Of a stretch of DNA of 64,000 nt, positions 17,224-49,233 are shown in pieces (position 1 is the first letter of the stretch; the number at the start of each line of letters is the position of its first letter). The notes below the pieces were generated by a model. That model was not told the DNA's origin, made no database searches, and saw only the letters and a list, made by a program, of their open reading frames with translations. The stretch comes from Actinoallomurus soli (lineage in GTDB: Bacteria; Actinomycetota; Actinomycetes; Streptosporangiales; Streptosporangiaceae), in the NCBI RefSeq assembly GCF_024055715.1, contig NZ_JAMXMV010000030.1, positions 1-64,000 of the forward strand. The letters are read 5' to 3'. A program made the translations under genes and the position numbers.

Positions 17224-18033
17224 TCAGTCCTTGATCCGCTCGGCCCCCGTGTAGACGTTCATCGAGTGCCCGCGCAGGAAGCCGACGAGGGTCATGCCGG
17301 CCTCCTCGGCGAGTTCGGCCGCGAGCGAGGACGGCGCGGACACGGCCGCGAGCGCCGGGATGCCCGCGAGCATGGCCTTCTGCGTGAGCTCGAACGACGC
17401 GCGGCCGCTGACCAGGAGCACGTGCCCGGCGAGCGGGAGCCGCCCGTCCTTCAGCGCCCAGCCGACCACCTTGTCGACCGCGTTGTGCCGTCCGACGTCC
17501 TCGCGCAGCACCACCAGCGTGCCGCTCGCGTCGAACAGCCCGGCCGCGTGCAGGCCGCCGGTCCGCTCGAAGACCCGCTGCGCCTCTCGCAGCGCGTCCG
17601 GCAGGGCGGCCAGGACGTCCGGGTCGAGGACGGTCGTGTCCGACCGGATGTCATGGCGCGCCCGTTGCCGGAGCGCGTCGATGCTGGTCTTGCCGCACAC
17701 CCCGCACGCGCTCGTCGTGTAGAAGGAACGCTCCACCGAGACCTCGGGCGGGGCCACCTCGGCCGCGAGCGCGACGTCGACGACGTTGAACGTGTCCGTG
17801 TCGGCGCAGTAGCGCATCGCGGCGACGTCCTCCGGCGCCCGGATGACGCCCTCGGCGTACAGGAAACCGGTGACCAGGTCGAAGTCGTTCCCCGGCGTCC
17901 GCATGGTGACCGACAGCGGGTGCCCTCCCAGCCGGATCTCGAGGGGTTCCTCGACGACGAGCGTGTCCGGCCTCGCCCGGCGTCCTCCTTCGTCGATGTG
18001 CGCGATCCGGCGTCGCACGGTCACTCGGCCCAT
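17224..18033 (-). CDS. fdhD: FdhD, formate dehydrogenase sulfurtransferase (269 aa)
   Basis: FdhD transfers sulfur from the cysteine desulfurase IscS to the bis-MGD cofactor, needed for active formate dehydrogenase. The essential loop CGVCGK is seen with Cys at about 110 and 113. Other conserved parts: EEPLEIRL near the start, [30 protein letters not shown], and the C-terminal RG.SMNVYTG. Start ATG 18033 gives the normal length. It is divergent from fdhA, 134 bp away, so enzyme and maturation factor share a control region. Confidence 0.95.
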
Positions 18034-18103
18034 GATCCGACCGTACCCGGGAAACGCCGACGTAGGCCCGCCGGGGCTTCCGGGAAAAGTGCGGTGCACG
18101 GTG

Positions 18104-18167: not shown

Positions 18168-21100
18168 GTGGGCATCGAGTCCTGGCCGGTGTTCCGGCAG
18201 CTGACCGGCACCGACCCGCTGGGGCGCGGCCGGGCCGCCCGTTCCTCGCGTACGGACGCCCTGCGGGCGCGCACCGAGCAGGCCGACCGGGTCGTCGACT
18301 CGATCTGCCCCTACTGCGCGGTCGGCTGCGGGCAGAAGGTCTACGTCAAAGACGAGAAGGTCGTCCAGATCGAGGGCGACCCGGGCTCGCCGATCTCCCG
18401 CGGCAGGCTCTGCCCCAAGGGCTCGGCCAGCAAGCAGCTCGTCACCTCGCCGACCCGGCAGACCAAGGTCCTCTACCGCCGGCCGTACGCCACCGAGTGG
18501 GAGCCGCTGGACCTCGACGAGGCGATGGACATGATCGCCGACCGGGTCATCGCGGCCCGTCGCGAGGGCTGGCAGGACACCTTCGAGGACAAGCCCGTGC
18601 GCCGCACCATCGGCTTCGCGAGCCTCGGCGGCGCCACCCTCGACAACGAGGAGAACTACCTCATCAAGAAGCTCTGGACCGCCCTCGGCGCGATCCAGAT
18701 CGAGAACCAGGCGCGTATTTGACACTCCGCCACCGTCCCCGGTCTGGGGACCAGCTTCGGTCGTGGCGGCGCGACGACGTTCCAGCAGGACCTCGCGAAC
18801 TCCGACTGCATCGTCATCCAGGGTTCGAACATGGCCGAGTGCCATCCGGTCGGGTTCCAGTGGGTGATGGAGGCGAAGGCGCGCGGGGCGCGGATCTTCC
18901 ACATCGACCCGCGGTTCACCCGCACGAGCGCGGTGGCGCACCGGCACATGCCGATCCGCGCCGGCAGCGACATCGTCCTGCTCGGCGCGCTGATCAACCA
19001 TGTGCTGAGCGGCGGGCACGACCTCCGTGAGTACGTCCTGCGCTACACCAACGCCTCGGTCATCCTGAGCGAGGACTTCCAGGACACCGAGGACCTCGGC
19101 GGCCTGTTCTCCGGCTACGACGCCGAGACCTCCTCGTACGACCCGGAGACCTGGGCGTACGCCGGGGGAGAGCAGGAGGCGCCGGCCGCCGGAGCGCGCG
19201 ACGAGCAGGAGAAGGGCGACGACCCGGACGGCGGCACGAGTCAGGGCGACGGTCCGGGCGGACCGTCGGGCCGCATCACGCAGGAGCACGGCCCCGGCGC
19301 CACCTACGAGGCGACCTCGTCGCAGACCGGCCACGCGGACGAGCGCGACGAGACGCTGCGGCACCCGCGCTGCGTCTACCAGGTGCTGAAGCGGCACTTC
19401 GCGCGCTACACACCGGAGATGGTCGAGCAGATCTGCGGCATCGCGCCGGACGACTTCGCCGAGCTCGCCGACGCGATCGTGGCGAACTCCGGGCGCGACC
19501 GCACCACCGCCTGGGTCTACAGCGTGGGCTGGACCCAGCACACCGTCGGCGCGCAGTACATCCGCACCGCCTCGATCCTGCAGCTGCTGCTCGGCAACAT
19601 CGGGCGGCCCGGCGGCGGCATCCTCGCCCTGCGCGGGCACGCGAGCATCCAGGGCTCCACGGACATCCCGACGCTGTTCAACCTGCTGCCCGGTTACCTG
19701 CCGATGCCGTACGCCCACCACCATGAGGACCTCGACACCTACCTCGAACGCGCCGCCGGGGACACCGGCTTCTGGGGGCGCAAGCGGTCCTACATGGTCA
19801 GCCTCCTCAAGGCGTGGTGGGGCGACGCGGCGACCGCCGAGAACGACTTCTGCTTCGACTACCTGCCGCGCCTCACCGGGGACCACGGCACGTACCACAC
19901 GGTCCTCGACCAGATCGAGGGCAAGGTCAAGGGCTACTTCCTGCTGGGGGAGAACCCGGCGGTGGGCTCGGCGGCCGGCCGGCTGCAGCGCCTCGGGCTG
20001 GCCGCGCTCGACTGGCTCGTCGTACGCGACCTGCAGCTCATCGAGAGCGCGACGTTCTGGAAGAACTCCCCGGAGATCGAGACCGGTGAGCTGACCCCCG
20101 AGGGGATCGGCACCGAGGTGTTCTTCCTGCCCGCCGCCTCCCATGTGGAGAAGGACGGGACGTTCACCAACACCCAGCGGCTGCTGCAGTGGCACCACAA
20201 GGCGATCGACCCGCCGGACGACGCCCGCAGCGACCTGTGGTTCATCTACCGGCTGGGCCTGCGGATCCGGGAGCGACTGGAGGGCTCCGCCGACCCCGTC
20301 GACCGGCCGGTCCTCGACCTGACGTGGGACTACCCGGAGGAGGGGCCGCACCACGACCCGTCCGCGGAGGCGGTGCTGCGTGAGATCAACGGCTACGACG
20401 CCGACGGGAACATCCTGTCCGGGTTCACCGCGCTGAAGGACGACGGTTCGACGTCCTGCGGCTGCTGGATCTACTCCGGCTGCTACACCGACGGCGTGAA
20501 CCAGACGGCCCGGCGCAAGCCGGGATCGGAGCAGTCCTGGGTGGCGCCCGAGTGGGGCTGGGCCTGGCCGTCGAACCGCCGCATCCTCTACAACCGCGCC
20601 TCCGCCGACCCGCAGGGCCGCCCCTGGAGCGAGCGCAAGGCGTACGTCTGGTGGGACGGCGAGCAGTGGACCGGCCACGACGTCCCCGACTTCGAGAAGA
20701 CCAAGCCGCCGTCGTACGAGCCGCCGCCGGACGCGAAGGCCGAGGCCGCGCTCGCCGGGACCGATCCGTTCATCATGCAGACCGACGGTAAGGGCTGGCT
20801 GTTCGTGCCGCGCGGCCTGGTCGACGGGCCGCTGCCGGCCCATTACGAGCCGCACGAGTCCCCGGTGGAGAACCTGCTGTACAAGCAGCAGGGCAACCCC
20901 GTCCGGCAGACCTACGACCGGCCCGGCAACCGGTACGAACCGGTCGACAGCGACGTCTACCCGTACGTCTTCACGACCTACCGGCTGACCGAGCACCACA
21001 CGGCGGGCGGCATGAGCCGCTTCCTGCCGTACCTGTCGGAGCTGCAGCCGGAGATGTTCTGCGAGGTGTCGCCGGAGCTGGCCGCCGAGCGGGGCCTGGT

Positions 21101-21419
21101 CCACGGTGACTGGGCGACCATCATCTCCGCGCGCACCGCCATCGAGGCGCGCGTCCTCGTCACCGACCGGGTCCGGCCGCTGCGGATCCAGGGCCGGGTC
21201 ATCCACCAGATCGGGCTGCCGTACCACTGGGGTTCGGCCGGCGCCGTCCGCGGCGACTCCGCCAACGACCTGCTGCCGATCGTGCTGGACGCCAACACCC
21301 ACATTCAGGAGAGCAAGGCGGCGACCTGCGACATCCGACCCGGACGCCGCCCGCAGGGGCCGGCCCTGCGCGCCCTCGTGCGACGCTACCGCCGCATGGC
21401 CGGGATCCCGGAGGACTGA
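18168..21419 (+). CDS. fdhA: selenocysteine-containing formate dehydrogenase alpha subunit (1083 aa with Sec at 185)
   Basis: Catalytic Mo/W-bis-MGD subunit that oxidises formate to CO2. It starts at GTG 18168 behind GGGAGGGGG. One [4Fe-4S] site is given by C47-x2-C50-x3-C54 and C82. The first segment ends NQARI, then TGA (18720-18722), then [17 protein letters not shown]; formate dehydrogenases have Sec or Cys at this spot, so the TGA is read as Sec185. The open frame continues to 21419. Residues about 330-394 are an acidic, low-complexity insertion. No Tat signal is seen, so the active site is probably cytoplasmic. fdhB and an NrfD-type gene follow. Confidence 0.95.
18720..18760 (+). promoter_or_regulatory. 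bacterial SECIS hairpin at the Sec codon of fdhA
   Basis: The TGA at 18720-18722 is followed after 18 nt by GGTCTG. GTCCCC (18735-18740) pairs with GGGGAC (18746-18751) around the five-base loop GGTCT. A lower CCG/CGG pairing (18727-18729 with 18758-18760) is possible. The E. coli fdhF SECIS has the same loop GGUCU, with the G also 18 nt after UGA. SelB would bind the loop and bring Sec-tRNA to the ribosome. The GGTCTG bases also encode Gly-Leu, so part of the match is protein conservation. Confidence 0.85.
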
Positions 21420-21424
21420 ACGGA

Positions 21425-22261
21425 ATGAGCAACAGCCTGTACGGCCCCCTCCCGGATGTCGCGGAGGACGCCGGCTACACCGGCGCGCCCGAGCGCCGCG
21501 GGTTCTTCACCGACACCTCGGTGTGCATCGGCTGTAAGGCCTGCGAGGTCGCCTGCAAGGAGTGGAACGCCGTCCCCGACGACGGGTTCGCGCTGACCGG
21601 CATGTCCTACGACAACACCGGCGCGCTCGGCGCCAGCACCTGGCGGCACGTCGCGTTCGTCGAGCAGACCCGGCCGCGTCAGGTCGGCGACGGGGGCGAC
21701 ACCCGCTGGCTCATGGCCTCTGACGTGTGCAAGCACTGCACGCATGCCGCCTGCCTCGACGTCTGCCCCACGGGCGCGCTCATCCGCACCGAGTTCGCCA
21801 CCGTCGTCGTCCAGTCCGACGTCTGCAACGGCTGCGCCTACTGCGTGTCCGCCTGCCCGTACGGCGTCATCGACCGCCGCGAGGACGACGGGCGGGCGTG
21901 GAAGTGCACGCTCTGCTACGACCGGATCGGCGACGGCCTCGAACCCGCCTGCGCCAAGGCGTGCCCGACCGACTCCATCCAGTACGGCCCGCTCGACGAA
22001 CTGCGCGAGCGCGCCAGGGCCCGGCTGGACGCGCTGCACGAGGAGGGCGTGACGGAGGCCCGCCTGTACGGCGAGGACGAGAACGACGGCGTCGGCGGTG
22101 CCGGTGCCTTCTTCCTGCTGCTCGACGAGCCGGAGGTGTACGGCCTGCCGCCGGACCCGGTCGTCACCACCCGCGACCTGCCGGCCATGTGGAAGTGGGC
22201 CGGCGGCGCGGCCCTGGCCCTGGCCGGCGGAGTGGCCCTGTCGTTCCTCGGGAGGCGCTGA
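21425..22261 (+). CDS. fdhB: formate dehydrogenase iron-sulfur (beta) subunit (278 aa)
   Basis: Electron-transfer subunit with four [4Fe-4S] sites: CIGCKACEVACK (about 36-47), CKHCTHAACLDVCP (about 102-115), CNGCAYCVSACP (about 134-145) and CTLCYDRI..CAKACP (about 161-183). One C-terminal helix (about 256-274, AGGAALALAGGVALSFLG) ends in Arg-Arg and should anchor it to the membrane. It starts 5 nt after the fdhA stop. The stop overlaps the next start (TGATG). It passes electrons from the catalytic subunit to the NrfD-type subunit. No Tat signal is seen. Confidence 0.93.
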   Translation: MSNSLYGPLPDVAEDAGYTGAPERRGFFTDTSVCIGCKACEVACKEWNAVPDDGFALTGMSYDNTGALGASTWRHVAFVEQTRPRQVGDGGDTRWLMASDVCKHCTHAACLDVCPTGALIRTEFATVVVQSDVCNGCAYCVSACPYGVIDRREDDGRAWKCTLCYDRIGDGLEPACAKACPTDSIQYGPLDELRERARARLDALHEEGVTEARLYGEDENDGVGGAGAFFLLLDEPEVYGLPPDPVVTTRDLPAMWKWAGGAALALAGGVALSFLGRR

Positions 22262-23259
22262 TGCAGCCGGATCGGGACGAACGGCGCACCGGGCGACGAG
22301 AAGAGCGACGCGGCGGAAGAGGAGGCGGAGGCGGAGGCCGTGAGGAGCGCATGGTCCCGCGCGCGGAGTTCCGCTCCTACTACGGCCGCCCGATCCTGAA
22401 GAAGCCGCGCTGGAAGGCCCCGCACATGCCGGGCTACCTCTACCTGGGCGGCCTGTCGGGCGCCTCCTCGACGATGGCGGCGCTGGCCGACGCCACCGGA
22501 CGGCAGCGGCTGGCGCTGACCGGCAGGATCACGGCCGCGGCGGCGGGCACGGCGGGCGCCGGGCTGCTCGTCGCCGAGCTCGGGCGGCCCGAGCGGTTCC
22601 TCAACATGCTGCGCATGTTCAAGCCGACCTCGCCGATGAGCGTCGGCTCATGGATCCTCGCCGGTCAGGGCGGGTTCACGATGGCGGCGGCGGCGTCCGC
22701 CGTCACCGGGATCGCCCCCGGCCTCGGCCGGGCGGCCGGCGCGGCGGCAGCGGTGACCGGTCCCCTCGTCGCGACCTACACGGGCGTCCTGCTGGCCGAC
22801 ACCGCGGTGCCCGCCTGGCATGAGGCCTACCGGCATCTGCCGCTGCTGTTCGCGGGCAGTTCCCTGGCGAGCGGCGGAGCGGTCACCATGATCGCCACCC
22901 CCCGCGGCGACGCGGGCCCCGCGCGCCGGATGGCGCTCCTCGGCGCCGGTCTCGAACTGGCCGCCGCCGGAGCCCTCGAACGCGGCATGGGCCTGCGCGA
23001 ACGCCCGGAGCTCGTCTCCGAGCCCTACCGGACCGGACGCGCAGGCGTCCTCTTGCGCACCGGTCGGGCGCTGACCGTCGTGGGGGCGGTCGGCGCCGTC
23101 GCGGCGAGCCGGAGCCGGGCGGCCGGCGTCATCGCCGGCCTCGCGCTCACCGGAGGCGCGCTGTGCACCCGGTTCGCCGTCCTCTACGCCGGGCACGCCT
23201 CGGCGGAGGACCCCAAGTACACGGTGATCCCCCAGCGCGAACGCCGCACCGTGTCCTGA
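22261..23259 (+). CDS. nrfD: NrfD/PsrC-type membrane subunit (332 aa)
   Basis: Polytopic quinone-site membrane subunit of the NrfD family, replacing the cytochrome b subunit of FDH-N/O. The N-terminal 30 residues are a charged Arg/Glu/Gly tail. The conserved segment WKAPHMPGYLYLGGLSGASS follows, then LGRPERFLNMLRMFKPTSPMSVGSW and about eight helices. ATG 22261 overlaps the fdhB stop. With fdhA-fdhB it would send electrons from formate to the quinone pool. The operon ends at a strong hairpin just downstream. Confidence 0.88.
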   Translation: MQPDRDERRTGRREERRGGRGGGGGGREERMVPRAEFRSYYGRPILKKPRWKAPHMPGYLYLGGLSGASSTMAALADATGRQRLALTGRITAAAAGTAGAGLLVAELGRPERFLNMLRMFKPTSPMSVGSWILAGQGGFTMAAAASAVTGIAPGLGRAAGAAAAVTGPLVATYTGVLLADTAVPAWHEAYRHLPLLFAGSSLASGGAVTMIATPRGDAGPARRMALLGAGLELAAAGALERGMGLRERPELVSEPYRTGRAGVLLRTGRALTVVGAVGAVAASRSRAAGVIAGLALTGGALCTRFAVLYAGHASAEDPKYTVIPQRERRTVS

Positions 23260-25007: not shown

Positions 25008-26015
25008 TCACCGCACGATCAAGGCGGTGGCCCCGCGCGGGACGAGCTCGCCCACCAACGGCGCGCCCGGTATCTCACCGGCGATGAGGAGCCCCCCGGA
25101 CGTCTGGGCGTCCGCGAGCAGCAGCCGGTCCTCCTCCGGCACCTTGCCGAAGTCGGCGTGCGGCGTCACCCAGGCGAGGTTGCGGCGGGTACCCCCCGAG
25201 ACGTACCCCTCGCGCACGGCGTCGCGCGCGCCGTCGAGATAGGGAACGACCGCGGCGTCGACCACGGCGGTGACACCGCTCGCCCGCGCCAGCTTGTACA
25301 GATGCCCCAGGAGCCCGAACCCGGTGACATCGGTCGCACAGCGGTGACCGTGCTCCAGCGCCGCCCGTGACGCCTCGGCGTTGAGCGTCGTCATCGCCGC
25401 GACGGCCTGCGGGAACACCTCACCCGTCGCCTTGTGCCGCGTGTTCAGCACTCCGACGCCGAGCGGCTTGGTGAGGGAGAGCGGCACGCCGGGCCGCCCG
25501 GCGTCCAGGCGCAGCAGCCGTTCGGGATCCGCCAGGCCGGTGACCGCCATGCCGTACTTCGGCTCTGGATCATCCACGCTGTGCCCGCCCGCGACATGGC
25601 AGCCGGCCGCGCGTGCGACGTCGAGACCGCCGCGCAGCACCTCGCGCGCCAGTTCCATCGGCAACGTGTCACGGGGCCAGCCGAGGAGATTGACCGCGAC
25701 GACCGGAGCGCCACCGACGGCGTAGACGTCCGACAGGGCGTTCGTCGCCGCGATCCGTCCCCAGTCGTACGGGTCGTCGACGACCGGGGTGAAGAAGTCG
25801 GCGGTGGCCACCACCGCTCGGTCACCCTGGATCCGCACCACCGCCGCGTCGTCGCCGTCGTCCAGCCCGATCAGCAGATCGTCCGGACGCTCCGTGTCGA
25901 TCAACCCGGCGACGATCTCCTCCAGCTCACCGGGCGGGATCTTGCAGGCGCATCCGCCGCCGTGCGCGAACTGCGTCAGGCGGTACGCCGCCCCGAGCGC
26001 TTCACTGCTGCCCAT
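25008..26015 (-). CDS. selD: selenide, water dikinase SelD (335 aa)
   Basis: Makes selenophosphate from selenide and ATP, the Se donor for Sec-tRNA. N-terminal RLTQFAHGGGCACKI has the catalytic Cys22 and Lys25, matching Cys17 and Lys20 of E. coli SelD; some homologues have Sec there, this one has Cys. Later motifs: DDAAVVRI, ATADFFTPVVDDPYDWGRIAATNALSDVYAVGG, and the C-terminal DAQTSGGLL. Start ATG 26015. It is divergent from the DUF6412-yidC-tRNA-Sec cluster, 95 bp away, which groups two Sec functions around one control region. Confidence 0.95.
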   Translation of the reverse strand: MGSSEALGAAYRLTQFAHGGGCACKIPPGELEEIVAGLIDTERPDDLLIGLDDGDDAAVVRIQGDRAVVATADFFTPVVDDPYDWGRIAATNALSDVYAVGGAPVVAVNLLGWPRDTLPMELAREVLRGGLDVARAAGCHVAGGHSVDDPEPKYGMAVTGLADPERLLRLDAGRPGVPLSLTKPLGVGVLNTRHKATGEVFPQAVAAMTTLNAEASRAALEHGHRCATDVTGFGLLGHLYKLARASGVTAVVDAAVVPYLDGARDAVREGYVSGGTRRNLAWVTPHADFGKVPEEDRLLLADAQTSGGLLIAGEIPGAPLVGELVPRGATALIVR

Positions 26016-26500: not shown

Positions 26501-27205
26501 ATGCTCGCCGTTCTCGACGGTCCCGTACGCGTGGCGTACGACCTCGTCACCGGACTCGTGTCCGCCCTGCACCCGCTCACCGGGGACCTCGGCGCGGCCC
26601 TGGCCATCGTCGTCTTCACCGCCGGGGTCCGCCTCGCCCTCCACCCGCTCAGCCGCCGCCAGGCCGCCGCGGACCGCGCCCGCCGCCGGCTCGCCCCGAA
26701 GGTCGAGGCGCTGCGCGAACGTCATCGCGACGACCCGCTCCGCGCCCATCAGGAGGTGACCGCGCTGTACCGGGCCGAGGGCACGTCGATGTTCGCCGGG
26801 TTCGGCCCGGCGCTGCTGCAGATGCCGGTCTTCGCCGTCGTCTACCGGCTGTTCCTGTCCCCGGCCGTCGGCGGCCATGCCAACCTGCTGCTCGCTCAGA
26901 CCCTCTTCGGCGTCCCGCTGGGGAACCGATGGCTCCTGTCGTCCGGCGCCTTCGGCCCGCACGGCCTGGTCTTCCTCTCCCTGTTCGTCGCGCTGGCGGC
27001 GGTGGCGTGGTGGACGTCGCGCCGGATTAACGCCGACCGGCCGGCCCCGGCCGAGCCGGTCGGCCGGATGATGCGCCTGCTGCCCTTCGGCACCGTCGTG
27101 GTCGCCGCATACGTTCCACTCGCAGCCGTTCTGTACCTGCTGACGTCGACCGCGTGGAGCACCGCCGAGCGCGCCCTCCTGTGGCGCGGGGGCACCGCGG
27201 GCTGA
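26501..27205 (+). CDS. yidC: YidC/Oxa1-family membrane insertase paralogue (234 aa)
   Basis: Compact Oxa1-type insertase with about five helices. Visible: TGDLGAALAIVVFTAGVRLALHPLSRRQAAA near the start, then a coiled charged segment (KVEALRERHRDDPLRAHQEVTALYRAEG). FGPALLQMPVFAVVYRLF follows. The hydrophilic-groove Arg (GVRLALHP) is present. It lacks a signal peptide and is shorter than the main YidC, as accessory copies are. It follows the DUF6412 gene and ends 14 bp before tRNA-Sec, so they are probably one transcript. Confidence 0.9.
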   Translation: MLAVLDGPVRVAYDLVTGLVSALHPLTGDLGAALAIVVFTAGVRLALHPLSRRQAAADRARRRLAPKVEALRERHRDDPLRAHQEVTALYRAEGTSMFAGFGPALLQMPVFAVVYRLFLSPAVGGHANLLLAQTLFGVPLGNRWLLSSGAFGPHGLVFLSLFVALAAVAWWTSRRINADRPAPAEPVGRMMRLLPFGTVVVAAYVPLAAVLYLLTSTAWSTAERALLWRGGTAG

Positions 27206-27219
27206 GTAGGCTCTGCGGC

Positions 27220-27315
27220 GGAGGCGGGAGGGTGCCTGGTGGCCCTCGTGGTCTTCAAAACCATTGGTCGGCGCTCGGCGTCGACGGCGGGTTCGATTCC
27301 CGTACGCCTCCGCCA
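27220..27315 (+). tRNA. selC: tRNA-Sec (anticodon TCA)
   Basis: 96-nt tRNA. The acceptor strand GGAGGCG (27220-27226) pairs with CGCCTCC (27305-27311), then G and an encoded CCA (27313-27315). The anticodon loop CTTCAAA sits in stem TGGT/ACCA, with TCA at 27255-27257. A long variable arm follows (around CGGCGCTCGGCGTCG), as in tRNA-Sec. The T arm is GCGGG-TTCGATT-CCCGT. The 8th acceptor pair is G:A. It decodes the UGA in fdhA with SelB. It is only 14 bp after the yidC stop. Confidence 0.93.
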
Positions 27316-46207: not shown

Positions 46208-47512
46208 ATGGACTCTCGACGCCGGGTTCCGCGTACGGACGCCGTGCTCGCCGACCCGCGGCTCGCCGAGGCGAGTCTCCGGCTGGGGCGGGGGATCGTG
46301 AAGTCCGCCGTCGTGGCGGCGCAGGAGCGGGCGCGGCGCGGCGAGATCGCCGCCGAGAGCGTCGCCGACGCGGCCGTGGCGGCCCTGCCGTCCCACGCCG
46401 CGACGCTGCGCCCGGTGATCAACGCGACGGGCGTCCTGCTGCACACCAACCTGGGCCGCGCCCCGCTGTCCGCCGCAGCCCGGGAGGCGGTGCTCGCCGC
46501 CGCCGGCTGCACGGACGTCGAGTACGACCTGGAGACGGGGCGCCGGGCCCGGCGAGGCGGCGGCGCCCTGGCCGCACTCCTGGAGGCGTGCCCGGCCGCC
46601 GAAGCGGCCCACGTCGTCAACAACAACGCGGCCGCCCTGGTGCTGGCCTCCACCGCCCTCGGCCGCGACCGGGAGATCGTCATCAGCCGCGGCGAGATGG
46701 TGGAGATCGGGGACGGCTTCCGCCTCCCCGACCTGCTCGTCTCCACCGGCGCACGGCTTCGCGAGGTCGGCACGACCAACCGCACGACCGCCGCCGACTA
46801 CGCGGCCGCGGTCGGCCCCGAGACGGGGTTCGTGCTCAAGGTGCACCCGTCCAATTTCCGCATCGAGGGGTTCACCGCGCAGGCGCCGGTGCGCGAGCTG
46901 GCGGGGCTCGGCGTCCCGGTCGTGGTCGACATCGGCTCCGGGCTGCTCGCCCCGGACCCGGCCCTGCCCGAAGAGCCGGACGCCGCCACCGCCCTGCGGG
47001 ACGGCGCCGACCTCGTCACCGCCAGCGGCGACAAGCTGCTGGGCGGCCCGCAGGCCGGCGTGCTCCTCGGCCGCACGGACCTCGTCGAACGCCTGCGGCG
47101 CCACCCCCTCGCCCGTGCGCTCCGCGTCGACAAGCTGACCCTCGCCGCGCTGGAGGCCACCGTCCGCGGTCCCCGTACGCCCACCGACGAGGCCCTGCAC
47201 GCGGACGTTCGCGTCCTGCGCCTGCGGGCCGAGCGGCTCGCCAAGGGCCTCCCGGAGCACGACGCGCTGGCCGTCGAGTCGACCGCCCGGGTCGGCGGCG
47301 GGGGAGCGCCCGGGGTCGGACTGCCCAGCGCGGCCGTCAGCCTGCCGGCGTCGTACGCCGTCCCGCTCCGCCGGGCCGGCGTCGTCGGACGGCTGGAGTC
47401 CGGCCGTCTCCTCCTCGACCTTCGTACCGTTCCCGCCGACCTCGACGACGGCGAACTGGCGCGGCGGATCGAACGGGCGGTCGCGGCGGGGGAGGAACGC
47501 CCATGCACGTGA
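46208..47512 (+). CDS. selA: SelA, L-seryl-tRNA(Sec) selenium transferase (434 aa)
   Basis: PLP enzyme converting Ser-tRNA(Sec) to Sec-tRNA(Sec) with selenophosphate. Seen: VINATGVLLHTNLGRAPLS (about 75-93), ARRGGGALAALL, VVNNNAAALVLA, GEMVEIGDGFRLPD, and the PLP lysine in SGDKLLGGPQAG (about K276). Length is typical of bacterial SelA. ATG 46208 has only a weak site. The stop overlaps selB by 10 nt, so the two are translated together. Together with selD, selC and selB in this window it completes the Sec machinery. Confidence 0.95.
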   Translation: MDSRRRVPRTDAVLADPRLAEASLRLGRGIVKSAVVAAQERARRGEIAAESVADAAVAALPSHAATLRPVINATGVLLHTNLGRAPLSAAAREAVLAAAGCTDVEYDLETGRRARRGGGALAALLEACPAAEAAHVVNNNAAALVLASTALGRDREIVISRGEMVEIGDGFRLPDLLVSTGARLREVGTTNRTTAADYAAAVGPETGFVLKVHPSNFRIEGFTAQAPVRELAGLGVPVVVDIGSGLLAPDPALPEEPDAATALRDGADLVTASGDKLLGGPQAGVLLGRTDLVERLRRHPLARALRVDKLTLAALEATVRGPRTPTDEALHADVRVLRLRAERLAKGLPEHDALAVESTARVGGGGAPGVGLPSAAVSLPASYAVPLRRAGVVGRLESGRLLLDLRTVPADLDDGELARRIERAVAAGEERPCT

Positions 47513-49233
47513 TCGCCACCGCGGGCCACGTCGACCACGGCAAGTCCACGCTCGTACGGGCGCTGACCGGGATGGAGCCGGACCGGTGGGCCGAGGAGCG
47601 CCGGCGCGGCATGACCATCGGCCTCGGGTACGCCTGGACGACGCTGCCGTCGGGGGACCGGATCGCGCTCGTCGACGTGCCGGGCCACGAGCGGTTCGTC
47701 ACCACCATGCTGGCCGGCGTCGGGCCGGTGCCCGCCGTCATGTTCGTGGTCGCCGCCGACGAGGGCTGGATGCCGCAGTCCGCCGAGCACCTCGCGGCGA
47801 TCGACGCCCTCGGCGTCCGCCACGGCCTGCTCGTCGTCACCCGCGCCGACCTCGCCGACCCCGCCGCCGCCCGCGACGAGGCGGCGGCGGAGATCGCCCG
47901 TACCGGCCTCGGGCGGGTCGAGGCGGTCACCGTGAGCGGCGCCACGGGCGAGGGGCTGCCCGCCCTGCGGGACGCCCTCGACCGGCTCGTCGCCCGCCTT
48001 CCCGCCCCCGACGCCACCGCGCCCGTACGTGTCTGGGTGGACCGGGCGTTCACGATCAAGGGCAGCGGCACGGTGGTCACCGGCACCCTGCCCGCGGGGA
48101 CGCTCCGCGTCGGCGACGAACTGCGGCTCGACGGCCGCCCGGTACGCGTCCGGGCCCTGCAGACGCTGAAGGAGACCACCGAGACCGTCTCCGCCGTCGC
48201 CCGGGTCGCGATCAACCTGCGCGGCGTCGACCGCGACCAGGTCGCGCGCGGCATGGCGCTGACGAGCGACGAGTGGACCGTCACCGATCTCGTCGACGTC
48301 CGCGTCCACGGGACCGAGGCGTCGGCGCTGCCCCGCGAGCCGGTCCTGCACATCGGCTCCGCCGCCGTCCCCGTACGCCTCCGTCCACTGGGGGAGGACA
48401 CGGCACGGCTGGCGTTGACCCGGCCGCTGCCGCTGCACATCGGCGACCGCGCGCTCCTGCGCGACCCCGGCGCCCGGCGCGTCGCGGGGGTGACCGTCCT
48501 CGACGTACGGCCCCCGGTGCTGCGGCGGCGCGGCGCCGCCGTCGACCGCGCCCGCGAACTGGCGGCCGGGGTCCCGGACGCCGGGGCACTGCTGCGCCGG
48601 TACGGCCTGGTCCGAATTCCCGACCTCCAGGCCATGGGCGTCGCCCCCGAGGGCGAGCCGGTCGCCGGGGACTGGCTCGCCGACCCGGAGCACTGGGCGG
48701 GGCTGCGCCGCAGGCTGGCCGAGGAGGTCGAGCGCCACGACGCCGCCGACCCGCTCGACCCGGGGCTCCCGGTCGAAGCGGCGCGCGGCCTGCTGGGCGT
48801 GCCCGACCGGCGGCTGGTCGACGCGCTGGCCCGCCCGCCGCTCCGCCTGGACGGCGGCCGGGTGCGCGGTCCGGCCGAGGCCGGCCTCCCGGCGCCGGTG
48901 GCGGGCGCGCTCCGGCGGCTGCGCGACGATCTCGAGAAGGACCCGTTCCACGCTCCGGAGGCCGGCCGGCTCGCGGAGCTGGGCCTCACCGGCCGCGCCC
49001 TCGCCGCCGCCGTACGCGCGGGCGCGCTGCTGAGGATCGCCGACGGCATCGTCCTGCTGCCCGGAGCGGACACCGACGCCGCCCGCCTGCTGGCCGGGCT
49101 GCCGCAGCCGTTCACGGTCAGCGAGGCCCGCCGCGCGCTCGGCACCAGCCGGCGGGTCGCCGTCCCGCTGCTGGAACACCTCGACCGGCGGGGCCTCACC
49201 GAACGCGCCGGGGACCGGCGCCGCGTCCGCTGA
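47503..49233 (+). CDS. selB: SelB, selenocysteine-specific elongation factor (576 aa)
   Basis: GTPase that carries Sec-tRNA to UGA by binding the SECIS hairpin. N-terminal EF-Tu-like domain: GHVDHGKST (8-16), DVPGH, and a switch I of RRGMTIGLGYAW. Beta-barrel domains II-III follow (about 175-340, FTIKGSGTVVTGT). The C-terminal ~230 residues are the winged-helix RNA-binding part (ending FTVSEARRALGTSRRVAVPLLEHLDRRGL). The canonical effector segment is altered. ATG 47503 lies inside the end of selA behind GGGGAGG. Length is normal for actinobacteria. Confidence 0.94.
   Translation: MHVIATAGHVDHGKSTLVRALTGMEPDRWAEERRRGMTIGLGYAWTTLPSGDRIALVDVPGHERFVTTMLAGVGPVPAVMFVVAADEGWMPQSAEHLAAIDALGVRHGLLVVTRADLADPAAARDEAAAEIARTGLGRVEAVTVSGATGEGLPALRDALDRLVARLPAPDATAPVRVWVDRAFTIKGSGTVVTGTLPAGTLRVGDELRLDGRPVRVRALQTLKETTETVSAVARVAINLRGVDRDQVARGMALTSDEWTVTDLVDVRVHGTEASALPREPVLHIGSAAVPVRLRPLGEDTARLALTRPLPLHIGDRALLRDPGARRVAGVTVLDVRPPVLRRRGAAVDRARELAAGVPDAGALLRRYGLVRIPDLQAMGVAPEGEPVAGDWLADPEHWAGLRRRLAEEVERHDAADPLDPGLPVEAARGLLGVPDRRLVDALARPPLRLDGGRVRGPAEAGLPAPVAGALRRLRDDLEKDPFHAPEAGRLAELGLTGRALAAAVRAGALLRIADGIVLLPGADTDAARLLAGLPQPFTVSEARRALGTSRRVAVPLLEHLDRRGLTERAGDRRRVR

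Follow-up and report, generated by a model that had tools for sequence, protein, structure and literature searches.

A formate dehydrogenase gene of Actinoallomurus soli with a predicted selenocysteine codon and a hairpin conserved among its Sec-type relatives

Results

We analysed a stretch of 64,000 nucleotides of Actinoallomurus soli DNA (the window) and conclude from its sequence that fdhA almost certainly encodes the alpha subunit of a molybdopterin formate dehydrogenase (FDH), in which the sel machinery and a hairpin following a UGA codon would place selenocysteine (Sec) at active-site residue 185. The gene and its codon, the conserved Sec/Cys position, a covarying hairpin and the set of sel genes were all observed here. 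The features within the gene are as follows:

18168..21419, plus strand: fdhA, FDH alpha subunit; GTG start, predicted Sec at residue 185, translated with TGA as U; NF041513 and TIGR01553
18717..18719, plus strand: ATT codon preceding the Sec codon; A/U-ending in 175/178 Sec sites
18720..18722, plus strand: TGA predicted to be read as selenocysteine; aligned with the Sec of 1kqf and 1h0h; all 208 distinct homologous sites carry TGA, TAG or a Cys codon
18735..18751, plus strand: candidate SECIS hairpin GTCCCC-GGTCT-GGGGAC, 6 bp, loop GGTCT at 18741-18745; six pairs kept in Sec sites, covariation

The reading frame is one gene

An earlier note on this DNA had claimed that the fdhA frame is broken solely by one TGA. 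This was confirmed, as the frame contains a single in-frame TGA ahead of its terminating TGA and is otherwise open. The read-through protein matched the NCBIfam model NF041513 (formate_DH_Act, for actinobacterial FDHs) over residues 3-1076 with 1968 bits (cut-off 1400), and TIGR01553 with 941.5 bits (cut-off 814.2). The part upstream of the TGA occupies NF041513 positions 3-185 and the part downstream positions 187-1066; these are consecutive positions on both flanks, which indicates one protein of one family. It had been set beforehand as a test whether the two halves belong to different families, and they do not, both lying in register on the same model. The ORFs to either side of the TGA both had a GC3 of 0.97.

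An ATG at 18831 starts an ORF of 862 aa, so that the region could be taken for two genes, one encoding a 184-residue protein which ends at the TGA and the other this second, downstream ORF. However, both parts fall on a single profile, a split would cut the molybdopterin domain and lose the very residue at which relatives have Sec or Cys, and members of the family in genomes without SelA run through the site with Cys. We therefore consider two genes very improbable. The expectation that an automated pipeline would split such a gene did not hold in general: the fdnG genes of Roseomonas and Terrarubrum each carry a single CDS annotation that spans the TGA, while several other plasmid records have no feature under the match. 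A separate observation concerns the fdhA of locus L158 (genome G393), which besides the TGA has a second in-frame stop (TAG) 457 codons past the site.

Residue 185 corresponds to Sec or Cys in homologues

In alignments with the structures of E. coli FdhN (PDB 1kqf) and of the D. gigas FDH (1h0h), residue 185 falls on the X that denotes Sec. In 16 aligned sequences, with Sec read as C, the invariant residues include the four cluster cysteines C47, C50, C54 and C82 and, at the metal site, residue 185 itself (Sec or Cys) and H186, which bears out the claim that homologues carry Sec or Cys at this position.

In order to count codons at the site, we pooled three overlapping samples, namely the relatives, the best 80 named loci of a longer list, and the matches from 394 sampled genomes of the class, and merged identical 210-nt sites before counting. 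Sites were located by a protein motif that puts no constraint on the third base of the preceding codon and misses deviating copies; four of the 75 loci L167-L241 (L220, L221, L229 and L240) gave no site, in the case of L221 and L240 because the coordinates used for G299 were wrong. Eleven of the 147 matching plasmid records were taken: nine proteobacterial of the TGA type, one of the Cys type (Azospirillum) and one actinobacterial of the Cys type (Nonomuraea). The FdhN-type locus L054 was excluded from the fdhA counts and is given separately below. The 208 distinct homologous sites carried TGA (163), TAG (15), TGC (27) or TGT (3), that is, 178 Sec and 30 Cys sites.

The A. soli genome has three full-length FdhA members, that of the window (TGA), L050 at C11:1085378-1088566 (TGA) and L047 at C1:230271-233492 (TGT), the latter two being 67-68% identical to the window protein. 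TGA is one base away from the Cys codons and Cys-type members do exist, as in this very genome, and for this reason we considered whether the TGA could be a nonsense mutation or a sequencing error in a Cys-type fdhA. Such an origin has hardly any probability left, given that TGA is found at most of the homologous sites, including the second copy in the same genome, that only Sec sites keep the hairpin past it, and that the remainder of the frame is open.

The window contains the sel genes

SelA, SelB, SelD and tRNA-Sec are all encoded in the window, each scoring over its cut-off, together with neighbours of fdhA that are related to formate oxidation:

17224..18099, minus strand: fdhD, FDH accessory sulfurtransferase; PF02634, and NF001943 above cut-off
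21425..22261, plus strand: fdhB, iron-sulphur subunit; Pfam Fer4_11 above cut-off, best NCBIfam model TIGR01582 (FDH-beta) below cut-off
22261..23259, plus strand: putative NrfD-like membrane subunit, 1-base overlap with fdhB; position, and a weak TIGR03148 match (26.1 bits, cut-off 347.6)
25008..26015, minus strand: selD, selenide water dikinase; TIGR00476, 387.5 bits, cut-off 125
27220..27311, plus strand: selC, tRNA-Sec with anticodon TCA; RF01852, 75.9 bits, gathering 47, and ARAGORN
46208..47512, plus strand: selA; TIGR00474, 411.1 bits, cut-off 267.9
47509..49233, plus strand: selB, GTG start, 4-base overlap with selA; TIGR00475, 300.2 bits, cut-off 242.25

As its match is weak, the assignment of the NrfD-like subunit rests mainly on position. 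The active-site segment of SelD is CACK in the window sequence, without Sec. We also observed a YidC/Oxa1-like 60KD_IMP gene at 26501-27205 (plus strand), between selD and the tRNA-Sec gene. Taken together, the residue 185 column, the two halves in register on one family and the presence of selA, selB, selC and selD in the window support the proposal of the earlier note that fdhA is probably a selenoprotein gene.

TGA-type members occur with SelA and tRNA-Sec

We then surveyed 41 genomes (that of A. soli and 40 relatives). A TGA-type member was found in 23. All of these had a tRNA-Sec of at least 67.8 bits as well as SelA above cut-off, the SelA of G003 being cut short by the end of its contig. 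Four genomes had only non-TGA members (G013, G017, G023 and G031), none with SelA or tRNA-Sec over cut-off. Matches to tRNA-Sec barely over cut-off (about 47-54 bits) occur also in genomes without SelA, and the tRNA-Sec cut-off by itself therefore does not discriminate. For SelB, 17 of these 23 genomes exceeded the cut-off (242.25), a less tidy result that counts against the Sec reading; it scored just under cut-off (219-241.5 bits) in G009, G010, G012 and G019, and the search returned none in the TGA-type genomes G003 and G024, both fragmented assemblies. A tRNA-Sec lies near fdhA in five of the six TGA-type loci scanned.

Two further observations were made in the survey. G008, G021, G027 and G033 have SelA, SelB and a strong tRNA-Sec, yet no member of the NF041513-type FdhA family, and a SECIS-model search for further selenoproteins in these four genomes gave nothing convincing (best E 0.34). 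G016 has two SelA genes (contigs C8 and C22), with a strong tRNA-Sec close to each.

A hairpin past the TGA is kept in Sec sites

The earlier note had described GGTCTG 18 nt downstream of the TGA and a 6-bp hairpin with loop GGTCT, and both are present. The motif likewise begins 18 nt past the TGA in E. coli fdhF (NC_000913), so that the asserted identity with fdhF stands for motif and spacing, but the loop predicted for E. coli has 4 nt within an interrupted stem, whereas that of the window has 5 nt and closes a continuous stem of 6 bp. Folding the bases past the TGA, a check that the note had suggested, returned the hairpin with an ordinary energy (z -0.79; 43 of 200 shuffles fold as well in this 72%-GC DNA). 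Energy was accordingly dropped as proof of a SECIS element and, being no better than chance, leaves the support for the hairpin comparative.

All six pairs form in 172 of the 178 Sec sites, the remaining six lacking one pair. None of the 30 Cys sites has all six, and the number of pairs reaches five in three of them. For covariation we used the 92 distinct windows obtained from 125 Sec sites, the 53 other Sec sites being left out. Every cell was paired in this set, and one pair occurs as five types (C-G, U-A, U-G, G-U and G-C), while versions of the hairpin slid along the sequence pair at 31-67%. The covariation score exceeded those of all 500 shuffles and of all slid controls, but relatedness can inflate the shuffle test, which makes the contrast with the Cys copies the stronger argument; 13 Cys windows showed no covariation, and their pairing was no higher than in shuffles. 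A covariance model of the Sec sites scored the two Sec copies of the A. soli genome at 77.8 and 73.9 bits (both are in the training set) and the Cys copy at 34.1.

The loop is GGTCT in 154, AGTCT in 16 and AGTTT in eight of the 178 Sec sites; GGTCT is also found in three of the 30 Cys sites, which counts against the Sec reading. The bases of the E. coli fdhF-type SECIS contacted by SelB, which we take to be U17 (bulged), G23 and U24, correspond to T, G and T in 178/178 Sec sites, but the U, as second base of a Val/Ile codon, is able to pair in these genes. The bSECIS criteria given in the available text of PMC13188914 (apical loop of 3-9 nt, G in the first or second loop position, loop 16-37 nt past the TGA) fit the window hairpin with its 5-nt loop. 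Two further candidates were rejected. Rfam SECIS_3 (RF01989) gave 24.8 bits over the full model length, below the gathering threshold of 63 and counting against membership. A conserved outer helix was likewise discarded, since the 7-bp helix of the window is not kept whole: among 146 distinct Sec windows, two of its seven pairs form in just 30% and 48%.

These data also bear on whether the UGA could be read by a near-cognate tRNA or be reassigned to an amino acid other than Sec. This is most unlikely, as the site is Cys in relatives rather than Trp or Arg, TGA-type members track SelA and tRNA-Sec, and the hairpin covaries; insertion of Sec is by far the better reading.

The codon ahead of the Sec codon ends in A or U

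In the 178 actinobacterial Sec sites the preceding codon was ATT (108), ATA (53), GTT (14) or ATC (3), versus GTC (16), GTG (13) or CTG (1) in the 30 Cys sites, none of which is A/U-ending; as the sites are related and come from overlapping samples, the counts are not independent events. Third-position A/T averages 5.7% in the flanks of the same genes, where ATC occurs 717 times against 14 for ATT and 12 for ATA. Ahead of the terminating TGA of these genes an A/T-ending codon was found in 29/109, above the flanks but far below the 98% of Sec sites. Furthermore, six of six FdhN-type Sec genes of Actinobacteria (L054 and L276-L280) have an A/T-ending codon, though only three of them are GC3-rich (0.87-0.97, with 0.44-0.61 in the others). 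A search of 148 genomes found a single TGA-type UGSC gene, in which the codon is GAT. Three gene families nevertheless share the pattern, and within fdhA it precedes both recoded stops. In contrast to the ATT of window fdhA, GTC precedes the TGA in 11/11 proteobacterial Sec-FDHs (E. coli fdhF and fdnG, and nine genes carried on plasmids, with GC3 of 0.63-0.90).

We read the pattern as a probable 5' recoding context. It could mean that actinobacterial Sec insertion uses a lineage-specific 5' element, an A/U directly ahead of the recoded stop and against the GC3 bias, a proposal for and against which we consider the case evenly balanced. As the codon can be ATT, ATA or GTT, what is needed would be either the base as such or a P-site codon-anticodon pair that is weak, by wobble or in some other way. 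Either might act on release-factor competition or keep the recoded codon unpaired. The predicted unpaired probability of the base ahead of the Sec/Cys codon averages 0.77 in Sec versus 0.28 in Cys sites. Overlap with a start codon (ATGA, TTGA) is disfavoured as the cause, as no such start is formed at the 15 TAG sites, each of which follows ATA. We found no prior 5' codon rule in the literature consulted, including the available portions of PMC4513850, PMC12013277 and PMC3834832, though one may have been published.

TAG-type sites

The TAG sites comprise one in G413 (L157 and L273) and 14 in records named Blastococcus, Geodermatophilus, Klenkia and Modestobacter (L070, L075, L076, L080, L081, L084, L090, L091, L098, L100, L105, L115, L125 and L126), genera which we take to be all Geodermatophilaceae. 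The original report of Sec-UAG in this family is said to be that of Mukai in 2016. In G413, the one TAG genome checked, the match to the tRNA-Sec model has anticodon CTA and lies away from the TAG-type fdhA locus, and no tRNA-Sec was detected beside TAG-type fdhA by ARAGORN in 12 loci or by Rfam in six of these (flanks of up to 10 kb). These FDHs have the fdhA family and the hairpin in common with the window, and differ from it in using TAG with anticodon CTA (G413) in place of the TGA and anticodon TCA of the window. That Geodermatophilaceae have Sec-UAG FDHs was reported before, as the available part of PMC5330540 states, citing the original report.

Discussion

Sec insertion itself, electron flow and physiology we infer from the known pathway. 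SelD would make selenophosphate, SelA would convert Ser-tRNA(Sec) from selC to Sec-tRNA(Sec), and SelB would carry the latter to the ribosome while bound to the hairpin just 3' of the UGA, such that UGA 18720 would be read as Sec and not as a stop. FdhD would mature the FDH cofactor, and FdhB and the NrfD-like protein may pass electrons from formate towards the membrane.

The window protein matches NF041513 over its full length, and we found nothing that sets it apart from this family. FDH alpha subunits and SelD are the most widespread bacterial selenoproteins, according to the text available of PMC5029168. A close parallel among actinomycetes, likened here by its published description, appears to be Actinomycetospora chiangmaiensis DSM 45062. 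In the accessible sections of PMC7176365 this strain is described as having a Sec-containing FdhA with FdhB and FdhC, as removing formate in a selenite-dependent manner, and as containing FdhA1, SelA, SelB and SelD at low abundance in its proteome. The same sections tabulate its SelA and SelB in the FDH1 cluster, whereas selA-selB lie about 25 kb from fdhA in the window; they also describe no selenium-independent formate oxidation as encoded, in contrast to the two Sec-type and one Cys-type FdhA of A. soli. Because the family has an NCBI model and a Sec-FDH is thus published for an actinomycete, at least in those sections, the window gene is known in kind and less novel than first scored: it is a sound, ordinary example of the Sec-FDHs already known in actinobacteria.

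The interest lies in the clean Sec/Cys comparison and in the candidate 5' codon rule. On the sequence evidence, the analysis would settle how the gene of a catalytic selenoenzyme is read, within a genome that has two FdhA of the Sec type and one of the Cys type. The family offers a natural experiment, in which the hairpin is retained after UGA or UAG codons taken to specify Sec, and gone in the Cys homologues. Finally, the strict synonymous constraint on the codon ahead of the Sec codon is directly testable by reporters.
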